Positions 13,336 through 17,472 of a stretch of 64,000 nt of DNA are shown here, one piece after another. Origin of the DNA: Flavobacteriales bacterium (lineage in GTDB: Bacteria; Bacteroidota; Bacteroidia; Flavobacteriales_F; PHOS-HE28). Positions within the stretch are counted from its first letter, which is position 1; each line of letters begins with the position of its first letter. The stretch is taken from NCBI GenBank assembly GCA_026129465.1, contig JAHCIA010000001.1:1745964-1809963 (forward strand). Reading direction: 5' to 3'. The notes under the pieces were generated by a model. That model had not been told where the DNA came from and did not search any database. It saw only the letters and a list, made by a program, of their open reading frames with translations. Position numbers and translations under genes: made by a program.

Positions 13336-13343
13336 CATCTTCG
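13336..13343 (+). promoter_or_regulatory. Putative -7 element (CATCTTCG) of the cyanophycinase-like gene
   Basis: CATCTTCG differs from the genome's usual box only in its first base and ends 5 nt before the ATG at 13349. It overlaps the alternative GTG start at 13343, arguing against that start. Confidence 0.4.
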
Positions 13344-13348
13344 TGGGC

Positions 13349-15133
13349 ATGAGGATCACGCTCTCGATACTCCTGCTTTCGCTGGTGCTGAACTCCCCGG
13401 CACAGAGCTACTTCAGTTATCCCTTGGGAAACCCGAACAGCATCGGCGTACAGGCGCTCGGCGGCGTATGCCTGATGGGCGGCGCCACGGAGAATGACGA
13501 GGCCATGAAATGGTTCCTGCAACGCGCCAACGGGGGTGATGTGCTGGTGCTGCGAGCCAGCGGTGGAAACGGGTACAACAGTTATTTCTACAGCGAACTG
13601 GGCGTCACCATCAACCGGGTGGAGACCATCGTGTTCAACAACGCCAGCGCCTCCAGCGAGGCGTACATCCACCAACGCATCCAGGAGGCAGAGGCGATCT
13701 GGTTCGCCGGCGGCAACCAGTGGAACTACGTGAACTACTGGCGCGACACGCCCATCGCCACGCTGATCAATGAAGCGATCGCCCAGCGGAACATCGTCGT
13801 AGGTGGCACCAGCGCGGGCATGGCCATCCTGGGTGGCGGCTACTACACCGCACAGGCCGGTTCGGTCACCAGCGCCACCGCGTTGACCAACCCGTACCAC
13901 CCTTGGGTGACGGTGGACATCGCGCCTTTCCTGGAAGTGCCGTTCATGTCCGAAGTGGTGACCGACACACACTACGACAACCCGGACCGACGCGGGCGGC
14001 ACATGGTGTTCCTGGCGCGCATGTTCGCCGACCACGGCATCGATGCAAAGGGCATCGCCTGCGACGAATACACGGCGGTGTGCGTTTCGCCCGATGGTGT
14101 GGGACGGGTCTTCGGGGAGTTCCCCACCTATCAGGACTTCGCGTACTTCCTCCAGATCAATTGCGAGGAGCCGGACGGGCCGGAAACGATCGCCTCCGGT
14201 ACGCCGCTGACCTGGGACCGCGGTGGCCAGGGGGTGAAGGTGTACAAGGTGCCGGGCACCATGGACGGAAGCAACACCTTCGACCTGAACGACTGGCGAA
14301 CGGGCAGCGGTGGCACCTGGCGACACTTCCGTGCCATCAATGGTGTCTTCAGCGAGTTGGCCGGCACACAAGCGCCCGAATGCGCCGCGGTGCCTATGCC
14401 AGGCCTGGCGCTCAAGGCCATGCTGCAAGGCCCCTACGATCCGGGCACCGGAAGGATGCGCGACGACCTGCGTGTGGCGGGCCTGATACCGGAAGAGGAG
14501 CCCTATACCGCGCTCGGGTTCACGCATGTGGGCGGTGGTGGCGAAACGCTGGACGCCGCCCTGCTCGGTGCAACAGGTGATGACGCGATCGTGGACTGGG
14601 TGGTGGTGGAATTGCGCGACCCGGATGTGCCGGCCACGGTGGTCCACACGATCGGTGCGTTGGTGCAGCGCGATGGCGACGTGGTGGACGCGGAAGGGAA
14701 CACGCCCCTGATGTTGGATGTGCCGGTGGGCGAGTACCATGTGGCCCTTCGCCACCGCAACCATCTTGGGGTGATGACCGCGGCCCCACTGACGCTGGGC
14801 GCGGTCACCGCCGTGGTGGACCTCACCCAACCGATCACGAACACCTATGGAACGGAGGCTATGCGCGAGACCGGCGGCGTGATGTTGCTCTGGTGCGGCG
14901 ATGTGAACTTCGATGGCAAACTTCAATACACCGGCGGGGGCAACGACCGCGACCCGATCCTGTCGACCATTGGTGGACCGGTGCCAACCAACACGGTCTC
15001 CGGCTACCTGCCCGCGGATGTGGACCTGGACGGCGTGGCCAGCTATACAGGCATCGGCAACGACCGCGACCCCATCCTCAGCAACATCGGCGGCAGCGTG
15101 CCCACGGCCATCCGCCACGCGCAGCTTCCCTAA
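13349..15133 (+). CDS. Secreted cyanophycinase-like S51 peptidase with duplicated C-terminal DxDxDG repeats
   Basis: A 594-residue protein with a signal peptide (about residues 1-20). Residues about 25-290 resemble cyanophycinase/peptidase S51: FAGGNQW near 119-124 and the nucleophile elbow GGTSAGM with candidate catalytic Ser155. Cyanophycinase cleaves the Asp-Arg storage polymer; secreted bacterial relatives hydrolyse beta-aspartyl peptides outside the cell. The last about 78 residues hold two tandem repeats, each with an acidic Asp-rich loop (DVNFDG, DVDLDG) followed by YTG-GNDRDPIL and VPT, a dockerin-like arrangement. No classical type A T9SS tail is seen; the repeat may replace it. An in-frame GTG two codons upstream is less likely. 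It converges on a DUF4258-like gene with a 4-nt overlap. Confidence 0.82.
   Translation: MRITLSILLLSLVLNSPAQSYFSYPLGNPNSIGVQALGGVCLMGGATENDEAMKWFLQRANGGDVLVLRASGGNGYNSYFYSELGVTINRVETIVFNNASASSEAYIHQRIQEAEAIWFAGGNQWNYVNYWRDTPIATLINEAIAQRNIVVGGTSAGMAILGGGYYTAQAGSVTSATALTNPYHPWVTVDIAPFLEVPFMSEVVTDTHYDNPDRRGRHMVFLARMFADHGIDAKGIACDEYTAVCVSPDGVGRVFGEFPTYQDFAYFLQINCEEPDGPETIASGTPLTWDRGGQGVKVYKVPGTMDGSNTFDLNDWRTGSGGTWRHFRAINGVFSELAGTQAPECAAVPMPGLALKAMLQGPYDPGTGRMRDDLRVAGLIPEEEPYTALGFTHVGGGGETLDAALLGATGDDAIVDWVVVELRDPDVPATVVHTIGALVQRDGDVVDAEGNTPLMLDVPVGEYHVALRHRNHLGVMTAAPLTLGAVTAVVDLTQPITNTYGTEAMRETGGVMLLWCGDVNFDGKLQYTGGGNDRDPILSTIGGPVPTNTVSGYLPADVDLDGVASYTGIGNDRDPILSNIGGSVPTAIRHAQLP
14897..15133 (+). 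repeat. Two-unit coding repeat (GNDRDPIL repeats)
   Basis: Within the cyanophycinase-like gene, two about 40-codon units encode an acidic loop, then YTGGGNDRDPILSTIGG and YTGIGNDRDPILSNIGG, then VPT. The second unit ends the protein. The Asp/Asn spacing in DVNFDG and DVDLDG suggests calcium binding like dockerin or thrombospondin type 3 repeats. Confidence 0.8.
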
Positions 15134-15513
15134 GGCCCGGCCAGCGACCACAAGGTGGCCGTGCTGTCCACGTCCGCATCGCGCATGCCGGCGATCACCA
15201 GCAGGGCCGGTACGCCGTCGGGTTCAGCGCGGAGGGTGTACCAGATGCTGTCCGCCGTGCGCCGAGTGGCGCGCAGGTGCACACGTGACTCCGGGATCGA
15301 GGCCCGCACCTCTTCCAAAGTGATCGATCGAGCGCGCATCGCTTCCTCCGCCTGGGGCGTGGCACGCACGAGCGTGGCCGTCAAACGCTGCTTGATGCGG
15401 GCCTGAGGCGTCCAGGCCATGTTGCCCAATCGGTCGCCCAGAAAGAGGATCGAAAGGCCCAGGCCGATGGCCACACCGATGAGGTAACGGAGGAGGCGGC
15501 GGCGGAAGTCCAT
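15130..15513 (-). CDS. Membrane-anchored DUF4258-like protein
   Basis: The 127-residue protein has one N-terminal membrane helix (about residues 8-26, LIGVAIGLGLSILFLGDRL), then a short basic segment WTPQARIKQRL and a globular remainder with ITLEEVRASI near residue 70. This arrangement resembles Bacteroidota proteins carrying DUF4258 behind a single anchor; function is unknown. I start at the ATG at 15513 because the 42 codons upstream are the CATG repeat array and are not protein-like. The 3' end overlaps the cyanophycinase stop by 4 nt in convergent orientation. Confidence 0.6.
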   Translation of the reverse strand: MDFRRRLLRYLIGVAIGLGLSILFLGDRLGNMAWTPQARIKQRLTATLVRATPQAEEAMRARSITLEEVRASIPESRVHLRATRRTADSIWYTLRAEPDGVPALLVIAGMRDADVDSTATLWSLAGP

Positions 15514-15559
15514 GGAACTCATGTGCCCATGCGGGCATGCGGTCATGTGCGCATGTCGC
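15511..15559. repeat. 8-nt-phased CATG array, 3' side of the four-helix-bundle gene
   Basis: CATG begins at 15520, 15528, 15536, 15544 and 15552, exactly 8 nt apart (units CATGTGCC, CATGCGGG, CATGCGGT, CATGTGCG, CATGTCGC), with another CATG at 15511 that is the start codon region of the DUF4258-like gene. A second CATG-rich tract lies on the other side of the four-helix-bundle gene. Confidence 0.85.
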
Positions 15560-15573
15560 ACTGCAAAAGTGCG
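15557..15573 (-). terminator. Hairpin below the four-helix-bundle gene
   Basis: CGCACT (15557-15562) and AGTGCG (15568-15573) form a 6-bp stem with a GCAAA loop, 35 nt beyond the stop of the minus-strand four-helix-bundle gene and abutting the CATG array. No T-run follows, so it may be a weak terminator or part of the element's end. Confidence 0.4.
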
Positions 15574-15607
15574 TGTTCGCAAGCCGTAGTCGGCGATTCC
15601 TGCGTGG

Positions 15608-16096
15608 TCATGGCTTTTCAGTCCCGCTTTTGCGAGCATTCCGTTTCTCGGACAGCTCTCGGGCCAGTCTTTCAGTGGTGGTCTTCAAGATGCTGTGGAA
15701 TAGCGGGAACAAGACCTTGGTGCGGCGTACAAGGTCCGGATCATGTGGATAGTGGGCCTTGATGTGGCAGAGATCCAAACGAAAATCGGTCTCCTCCAAC
15801 TCCTGGTGGGCCACCTTCATTTTGTTGAGGAATGCACGCAAGCTTTGGGCACCCTGCGCTTCCCGTACATGTGACCCCACGGAAGTGCCGCTCCGCAGGA
15901 TCTGGTCCGCGAACACCGGATTGATGCGGACCAAGGACTCACAGTAGTCCATCACATGACTGGCCAGTCCAAAGGTCTCATCCACCACCGGGTTCTTTCT
16001 CCGATAAGAGGCACCCTGACCCAGTTGTGGTTCGGCCAGCTGCTCATTCCAGAATGAGGCCAACCACTCATCCGCATTGAAGGTCTCTTTTACCAT
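15608..16096 (-). CDS. Four-helix-bundle protein (S23/IVP-type, Avd-like)
   Basis: A 162-residue, all-helical protein matching the four-helix-bundle family first seen in 23S rRNA intervening sequences. The core runs from FGLASHVMDYCESLVRIN through ADQILRSGTSVGSHVREAQGA, the hallmark of the family, to a final helix with ELEETDFRLDLC. A relative, Avd, binds nucleic acid and reverse transcriptase in diversity-generating retroelements; stand-alone copies have no known role. No reverse transcriptase or variable repeat is nearby. The start at 16096 (MVKETFNADEW) gives the normal domain plus about 30 extra residues. The gene is isolated between CATG-rich tracts on both sides, suggesting a discrete, possibly mobile unit. 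Confidence 0.85.
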   Translation of the reverse strand: MVKETFNADEWLASFWNEQLAEPQLGQGASYRRKNPVVDETFGLASHVMDYCESLVRINPVFADQILRSGTSVGSHVREAQGAQSLRAFLNKMKVAHQELEETDFRLDLCHIKAHYPHDPDLVRRTKVLFPLFHSILKTTTERLARELSEKRNARKSGTEKP

Positions 16097-16124
16097 GGCG
16101 ATCGGGTTTGAAGGAAAGATATCG

Positions 16125-16247
16125 CATGCGGTAGGTGCTGGAGAACATATGCACATGTATGTCCCTGATCGAAACAAGGATCCTGTCCCATGGGCACATG
16201 GTGCATGGGATCCGCGCGTTGGCGGCACATGACCACATGGGCATATG
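16125..16247. repeat. CATG-rich tract, 5' side of the four-helix-bundle gene
   Basis: CATG occurs at 16125, 16154, 16189, 16197, 16204, 16228 and 16236, with two CATATG steps at 16146 and 16242. Several steps are 8 nt (16189-16197, 16228-16236) or near multiples of 8 (16204-16228 is 24), echoing the strict 8-nt array on the other side of the gene. Confidence 0.7.
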
Positions 16248-16251
16248 CTAT

Positions 16252-17472
16252 TCAGAAGGCCGCCAGCAGGATGTCCAGATCCTTGTGCGGCAGCTTGAAG
16301 GCCTCGGCCAGGATGCGGCTGGTGAGGTTGCCGTTGTAGAGGTACACGCCGTGGCGCACGCCGAGGTTGGTCTTGATCAGATCTTCGAAGCCGCCCACAT
16401 CGCCCATGTTCAGCAGCATGGGGCCGAAGATGTTGCTGAGCGCGGTGCTGGCGGTGCGGGGCACGCGGCTGGCGATGTTGGGCACACCATAGTGGATCAC
16501 ACCATACTTCTTGAAGACCGGATCGGTGTGTGTGGTCACTTCGCTGGTCTCGAAGCAACCACCGCGGTCGATGCTCACGTCCACGATCACGCTGCCGTTC
16601 TTCATCTCCTTCACCATGTCCTCGGTCACCACCATGGGCGTGCGGCCCTGTTCCGGGCGCAGGGCGCCGATGGCCACGTCGGCATGTTTCAGCGCCTTCT
16701 TCAATTCGCTGGGCTGGGCCACAGAGGTCCACACGCGCTGGCCCAGGTCGGTCTGCAGGCGGCGCAGGCGGTAGATGCTCTTGTCGAAGACCTTCACGCT
16801 GGCGCCCAGGCCCAATGCGGCGCGCGTGGCGAACTCGCCCACGGTGCCGGCGCCGATGACGACCACTTCGGCGGGCGCCACCCCACTGATCCCACCCAAC
16901 ATGAGGCCCTGCCCGCCCTTGTCGGCGCTGAGGTATTCGCTGGCGATCTGGATGCTGGTGTTGCCGGCGATCTCGCCCATGGCCCGGATGATCGGATAGA
17001 TGCCCTCGCGGTCCTTGATGAAGTCCCAGGCCACGGCGGTCATGCGCTTCTCCATCATGCGCTTCAGGGTGTCCTTGGGCTGCACGGTGAGTTGCAGGGC
17101 GGAGATGAGCGTCTGCTTGTGGCGCAGCAGTTCGATCTCGTTGTGGTTGGGTGGCGCCACCTTCAGGATCAGGTCGGCCTTGTAGACCTCCTCGGGGCTG
17201 TCCACCACCAGCGCGCCCGCCTCGCTGTAGTCGTTGTCCTGGAACTGGGCGGGTTCACCGGCGCCACGCTGGATCACCACCTGGTGGTCGCGGCCGGTGA
17301 GCACGGCCACCGCGGCGGGTGTCAGCGGCACGCGGTGCTCCTGGAAGGTGATCTCCTTGGGGATGCCGATGAAGAGGCTCTTCTTCCGCAGGCCCACCGC
17401 CATCACCTGCTCCTGCGGCATCATGGCCGATTCACGGGCCAGTTGCTTGAGCAGTTCCGAGCTTGGACTCAT
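16252..17472 (-). CDS. ald: Alanine dehydrogenase
   Basis: A 406-residue NAD-dependent alanine dehydrogenase, which interconverts alanine and pyruvate plus ammonia. The N-terminal catalytic half has IGIPKEITFQEHRVPLTPAAV with the substrate-binding Arg and a QRGAGEPAQFQDNDYSEAGA block; the NAD-binding half carries VVVIGAGTVGEFATRAALGLG (GxGxxG). In Bacteroidota this protein is longer than the roughly 370 residues of Bacillus Ald, with an N-terminal extension as here. The start at 17472 (MSPSSELLK) is supported by a TACCTTCG box 17 nt upstream. It lies next to tsaE and porX, a neighbourhood conserved across Bacteroidota although the three functions seem unrelated. Confidence 0.92.
   Translation of the reverse strand: MSPSSELLKQLARESAMMPQEQVMAVGLRKKSLFIGIPKEITFQEHRVPLTPAAVAVLTGRDHQVVIQRGAGEPAQFQDNDYSEAGALVVDSPEEVYKADLILKVAPPNHNEIELLRHKQTLISALQLTVQPKDTLKRMMEKRMTAVAWDFIKDREGIYPIIRAMGEIAGNTSIQIASEYLSADKGGQGLMLGGISGVAPAEVVVIGAGTVGEFATRAALGLGASVKVFDKSIYRLRRLQTDLGQRVWTSVAQPSELKKALKHADVAIGALRPEQGRTPMVVTEDMVKEMKNGSVIVDVSIDRGGCFETSEVTTHTDPVFKKYGVIHYGVPNIASRVPRTASTALSNIFGPMLLNMGDVGGFEDLIKTNLGVRHGVYLYNGNLTSRILAEAFKLPHKDLDILLAAF

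Follow-up and report, generated by a model that had tools for sequence, protein, structure and literature searches.

An S23-type gene between inverted arrays of a short degenerate unit in a Flavobacteriales genome: one copy of a candidate class of small elements

In Bacteroidota and Cyanobacteria, S23/IVP genes that stand alone are common, but to our knowledge they have not been assigned a role. Nor is an origin known for short degenerate repeats between genes, such as STRRs and TAACTGA arrays. In the 64,000-nucleotide stretch of Flavobacteriales DNA analyzed here (the window), a single S23-type gene lies between arrays of the tetramer CATG. A preliminary description of the sequence took these phased palindromic tetramers as a hint at the ends of a small mobile or RNA-processing element. 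The locus raises the question of whether such arrays belong to the S23 gene and, if so, what kind of unit the gene and the arrays form together.

The S23 gene of the window and its CATG arrays

The S23 gene, of the 23S rRNA-intervening-sequence type and encoding a four-helix-bundle protein, occupies positions 15,608–16,096 on the minus strand. The reading frame is intact, and its product of 162 amino acids belongs to PF05635 (43.1 bits, cut-off 33.8) and to TIGR02436 (47.7 bits, cut-off 24). The gene lies between protein genes, outside 23S rRNA. Upstream is an alanine dehydrogenase with AlaDh_PNT domains (16,252–17,442, minus strand, stop at 16,252), and downstream is a gene named sm for a 127-aa protein without a Pfam family (15,130–15,513, minus strand), whose start codon is located 7 bp past the nearer array. 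This array, 3′ of the S23 gene (15,520–15,555), reads CATGTGCC CATGCGGG CATGCGGT CATGTGCG CATG with an 8-nt period and is in reverse-complement orientation relative to the S23 sense strand. The array on the 5′ side (16,189–16,247) is partly degenerate and in sense orientation. The CATG positions given in the preliminary description (15,520, 15,528, 15,536, 15,544 and 15,552 on one side; 16,189, 16,197, 16,204, 16,228 and 16,236 on the other) were exact, and the 5′ array also holds CATATG at 16,242. Its statement that the unit contains only the S23-type gene and a hairpin was confirmed as well: the GGATCC-bounded hairpin GGATCC...CCCATG...CATGGGATCC (16,178–16,213), recognized in the sequence within the 5′ array, is also present in the RNA fold predicted for the whole putative element (5′ array, S23 reading frame and 3′ array; 15,513–16,251, minus strand), and the outermost arrays pair with each other in this fold. 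Phased arrays are hence present on both sides as described, but that description was incomplete, as a single unit is repeated in both, in opposite orientations.

Pairs of CATG at a distance of 8 nt are by themselves unremarkable in the window (6, versus 3.6 ± 1.9 in shuffles). Triplets at this spacing numbered 23 in the genome, versus 0 for the reversed pattern. In a 1.08-Mb sample of DNA from a relative (G008), which was not picked for arrays, there were 44 CATG pairs at 8 nt versus 13–16 at 10, 11, 13 and 14 nt, and the excess appeared at 8 and at 16 nt. Such unselected samples were used in place of a 38-fold noncoding enrichment of CATG arrays, a figure that is inflated because part of the underlying stretches had been picked at array sites. 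In a scoring based on the 8-nt unit, which was obtained from S23 flanks across many species, the 3′ array of the window reached 8.7, and none of 300 shuffles exceeded 2.8; the degenerate 5′ array was not significant alone.

An inverted unit whose length follows the S23 branch

When GATC was searched for as a control, with the spacing unchanged, GATCAGNN arrays were found in almost every species of the genus. Two of these arrays, in G010, are inverted and lie one on each side of a different S23 gene. The flanks of S23 genes in other genera have the same plan with different words, and the place of CATG is taken by GATCAGNN, AATTTGAA, AATTCGT and others. The preliminary description had proposed that other S23 genes of the host genome be searched for phased repeats at their borders; all five had inverted flanks, each scoring higher than any of 200 shuffles, and their words included TGTCCTA, AACTGGCG, CAACTGA and CTTCACT. 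In this genome the check thus favored the preliminary description, which would have been refuted by S23 genes without such flanks. CATG arrays were present at none of them. For G008, inverted flanks were found at 3/5 S23 genes tested, and the other 2/5 were without clear inverted flanks.

A total of 80 S23 loci was collected from named genomes, with a genome scan that used a 5-sequence alignment. When the 5′ flank was compared with the reverse complement of the 3′ flank, S23 genes had a mean score of 39.0 (77 usable loci), while mismatched pairs averaged 24.3 and control ORFs 21.4. A periodicity of 7 or 8 nt was observed in 54 of the 80 gaps adjoining S23 genes and in 21 of 129 other gaps at the same loci (Fisher 6e-14, which is too small a p value as the loci share ancestry). 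Across Bacteroidota species the 8-nt unit, to which alone the consensus applies, reads R-A-T-K-W-G-N-N, with 96–97% for the A-T and 77–85% for the G at the sixth base. The unit profiles of 5′ flanks read in sense and of 3′ flanks read in antisense were nearly identical (r = 0.99), and the predicted orientation, sense on the 5′ side and reverse complement on the 3′ side, was found for 51/57 and 57/59 flanks. Both the window word CATGTGNN, with C for R, and the relatives' word GATCAGNN, with C for K, fit this unit frame, and the fit of the window word around the constant A-T and G explains the palindromic CATG.

These words also decide on the tetramer itself. CATG could be a signal independent of S23, either as a methylation or restriction site or as the target of a tetramer-binding protein, and its conservation alongside variable spacers in this lineage would agree with that. 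Relatives, however, hold GATC, AATT, GATT or AATG at the same place in the same unit frame, so that this possibility, already largely refuted, has next to no credence. CATG as a site or regulator in its own right was rejected on the same grounds, and the palindromic tetramer, which the preliminary description had treated as the signal, is only the word of this lineage.

The unit length was then compared with the phylogeny of the S23 proteins. In a tree of 91 proteins, a clade of 46 (support 100/99) includes the window gene; inside this clade 31 loci had 8-nt arrays and 1 had 7-nt arrays, whereas outside it 27 loci had 7-nt arrays and 1 had 8-nt arrays. The association between clade and unit length (Fisher 9e-15, a value made optimistic by the relatedness of the loci) was obtained with a period call absent for 43/142 loci, and label shuffles on the tree likewise indicated that the unit-length label is clustered. 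The split spans Bacteroidota, Cyanobacteria, Spirochaetota and Chloroflexota. Since Bacteroidota are found on both sides of it, unit length follows the S23 branch and not the host phylum. The link between S23 genes and arrays offers a concrete hypothesis for the lone genes and the intergenic repeats alike, in which each branch of the protein family goes with a particular unit length in the inverted arrays around its genes, and it predicts that a preference for 7-nt or 8-nt units goes by S23 clade.

Sites with and without the gene

Among 295 genomes of the class, CATG arrays were essentially limited to the genus of the host and were patchy inside it. At the junction past the alanine dehydrogenase gene, an S23 gene with arrays on both sides is present in the window genome (G000), G017 and G229. 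The S23 gene of G015 has an array on its 3′ side, and the alanine dehydrogenase end of G015, located on another contig, also carries an array. The junction holds an array and no S23 gene in G312 and G008, and neither of the two in G010, G005, G014 and G007; in most other species the S23 gene is missing between alanine dehydrogenase and sm. Counterparts of the 3′ array of the window were found in synteny in G017 and G015, and counterparts of the 5′ array in G017 (three 87-bp copies), G229, G015, G008 and G312. In the orthologous arrays of G312, G008 and G229, CATG and the adjoining TG/CA are kept and two spacer bases vary. The S23 gene in G000, G015, G017 and G229 together with the array left in G008 and G312 fits a loss of the gene that leaves the array in place. 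A comparison of sites in relatives, as suggested in the preliminary description, thus did find S23-free sites at this junction, but in G312 and G008 the array persists at them.

Solo arrays are common. The host genome has about a dozen further CATG array sites without S23, so that solo arrays outnumber the S23 genes with the same word, and in G008, which lacks a close homologue of the window S23, CATG triplets number 59. Together with the alanine dehydrogenase junctions that lack the gene, these sites exclude a strict one-to-one link between arrays and S23, and the idea of element ends is therefore supported in part: here and in other phyla, S23 genes lie between inverted phased repeats that resemble the ends of an element and could close an RNA stem, but the arrays are not strictly tied to S23. 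Arrays often immediately precede a start codon or closely follow a stop codon. The orientation of the genes around them is mixed, and their mean folding z is −2.0. A terminator or hairpin role for all arrays was rejected in view of the mixed orientation, and because this z reflects the palindromic units more than a uniform hairpin.

Three further observations concern the arrays of this genus. One array in the host genome (L009:1501-1528; G000:C1:895184-895211) lies in frame inside a predicted heptosyltransferase-like gene, to which it adds HMGTWAHGHM, and could be an in-frame solo insertion. A 2.2-kb segment of G008 with a 487-aa ORF is located between two CATG arrays (L142:2019-4328) and is absent in G312 (L114:10110-10334); arrays may mark other sites of gene gain or loss. 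Several contigs of G312 end at CATG arrays (L116:8-51, L123:10017-10060 and L118:10059-10078), and the same array sequence at two G312 contig ends suggests that the assembly breaks at arrays.

S23 genes were also found on plasmids of Nostoc, Anabaena, Dolichospermum, Euhalothece, Planktothrix, Gloeocapsa, Picosynechococcus, Treponema, Chlorohelix and Bernardetia. Most of them are flanked by inverted arrays of short period, 8 nt in Picosynechococcus and 7 nt otherwise. Several of these plasmid S23 genes split functional pairs, namely cas2/cas1, cas10/cmr3, DUF1156/Swt1-HEPN and DISARM drmD/MmeI. Plasmid records with S23 genes inside defence loci are L316, L320, L323, L324, L325 and L327. The S23 genes in such loci are probably intruders rather than parts of the systems, which would account for small ORFs inside cas and other defence operons. 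The S23 gene of Nostoc C052 lies between perfect inverted ends of 36 bp, which consist of AATTCGT units and are predicted to fold into one stem; at this site sister plasmids are uninterrupted, and ~250 bp of host sequence is missing in the occupied copy. In Nostoc UHCC 0870 and N. edaphicum, cas2 directly adjoins cas1 with no S23 gene or arrays. For S23 genes in two-gene operons, insertion is a simpler reading than loss. No target duplication was seen at the S23 elements.

Readings of the unit and its relation to known systems

We consider the window unit to be a member of a widespread class of small elements, each consisting of an S23 gene between inverted arrays of a short degenerate unit, and we assign this reading, with the following working included, a probability of about 0.6. 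Elements of this class have the 8-nt unit R-A-T-K-W-G-N-N in the S23 branch of the window and a 7-nt unit in others. In the transcript, the arrays would pair in vivo to form a stem that encloses the S23 reading frame. An S23 oligomer, probably a ring of five, would recognize the unit, with one unit per subunit, both at the ends of its own element and in solo arrays at other sites. Five chains are present in 2RLD, the one relative found with a solved structure. A ring in which each subunit contacts one unit would explain why the unit length stays constant in a given S23 branch even as the word changes. Helped by host functions, the element would spread to intergenic gaps and into operons, and loss of the S23 gene could leave solo arrays. 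Several points count against this reading: we know of no nuclease or recombinase domain in S23, target duplications are lacking at the sites seen, and ~250 bp were lost at the Nostoc C052 site. The excess of solo arrays, the two G008 genes without clear flanks, the loci that yielded no period call and the weak 5′ array of the window weigh in the same direction.

Alternatively, S23 could be mainly a regulator, for which the arrays would be operator or mRNA sites, autoregulatory at its own gene and marking its regulon where they stand alone, in a unit that is not mobile now. The location of arrays next to start codons and stops and the kept CATG and TG/CA amid changing spacer bases are in favor of such a role, and MacGregor (2015) argued likewise for TAACTGA heptamers (PMC4679880). 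The inverted arrays on both sides, the placement within cas2/cas1 and cas10/cmr3 and the gene-free relatives nevertheless fit an inserted element better, and we regard a mainly regulatory S23 as unlikely. It is improbable, and was already disfavored, that S23 lies by coincidence near arrays that are generic repeats of intergenic DNA, either terminator-like or products of slippage. Many arrays without S23 nearby, the array that persists past alanine dehydrogenase in the absence of the gene and a general enrichment of short tandem repeats between genes (in G008, 44/508 between genes versus 9 in coding controls) would be expected from such repeats; the enrichment adjoining S23, the fixed inverted orientation, the unit length tied to the S23 branch and the finding that all S23 genes of the host genome are affected would not. 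Inverted ends and gene-free sites are also compatible with a MITE-like or cargo element whose ends let an ordinary transposase mobilize it in trans. This is very improbable, since each copy has its own word and no constant terminal sequence, the ends are tandem units, target duplications were not seen, and unit length follows S23 and not a transposase. In REP/RAYT and MITE systems, a gene is flanked by inverted repeats and solo repeats are dispersed in the genome. An S23 gene between inverted repeats, with solo arrays dispersed elsewhere, can be viewed as analogous, but the S23 unit holds no transposase and its ends are tandem arrays without a constant sequence.

The element reading has its nearest points of comparison in systems with an S23-type protein or with short intergenic units. 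The intervening sequence (IVS) of rRNA consists of an S23 ORF closed by complementary ends that are cut by RNase III, as for S23p of Coxiella burnetii, and is regarded as a selfish element (PMC4990558). Shared with the IVS are the S23 ORF and complementary ends that appear able to form a stem, as the arrays close both folds that were predicted, one for the window unit and one for the Nostoc element, and complementarity was found in 77 loci. New relative to the IVS are the location between protein genes, the ends built as arrays of a 7- or 8-nt unit, the solo arrays elsewhere and the unit-length rule. We read the window element as IVS-like, located outside rRNA, with a protein that probably recognizes the repeat unit. 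The STRRs of filamentous cyanobacteria are described, in the passage concerned, as degenerate, hairpin-forming tandem 7-bp units between genes with unknown function, and that passage draws no link to S23 (PMC2670836). The cyanobacterial S23 genes of this analysis are flanked by such heptamers, whereas the window unit has 8 nt. TAACTGA direct repeats of Beggiatoaceae, Cyanobacteria and Bacteroidetes are intergenic 7-nt arrays, often just before start codons, that were proposed to be regulator-binding sites, with no mention of S23 (PMC4679880). For these repeats, and for STRRs in the passage cited, no function or mechanism is established (PMC4679880; PMC2670836). The Avd proteins of diversity-generating retroelements are homologous to PF05635 proteins (PMC10053308); unlike at those retroelements, no reverse transcriptase was found among the scanned proteins neighboring the window S23. 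No paper that links S23 genes to flanking arrays was found in the literature searched, which was covered in part, so that earlier reports are possible.

The S23–array link points to an unrecognized, self-contained genetic element and to a possible source of puzzling intergenic repeats, and it provides homologues of Avd for which the genome sequence itself indicates a likely nucleic-acid target. A wider proposal, which we offer tentatively and which may well prove wrong, is that S23 proteins are ring-shaped readers, and perhaps makers, of short tandem repeats. The protein would set the unit length (7 or 8 nt per subunit), each lineage would found and spread its own word, and cyanobacterial STRRs, TAACTGA-type heptamers and many intergenic arrays of Bacteroidota would be ends or remnants.

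Other repeats were encountered at or near the same genes. In G016, a close relative, the intergenic gap past alanine dehydrogenase (L069) contains several copies of a different dispersed palindrome, GACCCCTCCGGGGTC. Intergenic 10-nt arrays of the CACGGATGAA type occur in array-poor species, past the alanine dehydrogenase of G003 (L072) and in G004 (L189 and L191); they were not seen adjoining the sampled S23 genes and are possibly linked to something else. Within the window, positions 13,343–15,133 (plus strand) encode a Cyanophycinase-like S51 peptidase (TIGR02069, 57 bits, under the cut-off) with the C-terminal repeat GDVNFDGKLQYTGGGNDRDPIL / ADVDLDGVASYTGIGNDRDPIL.
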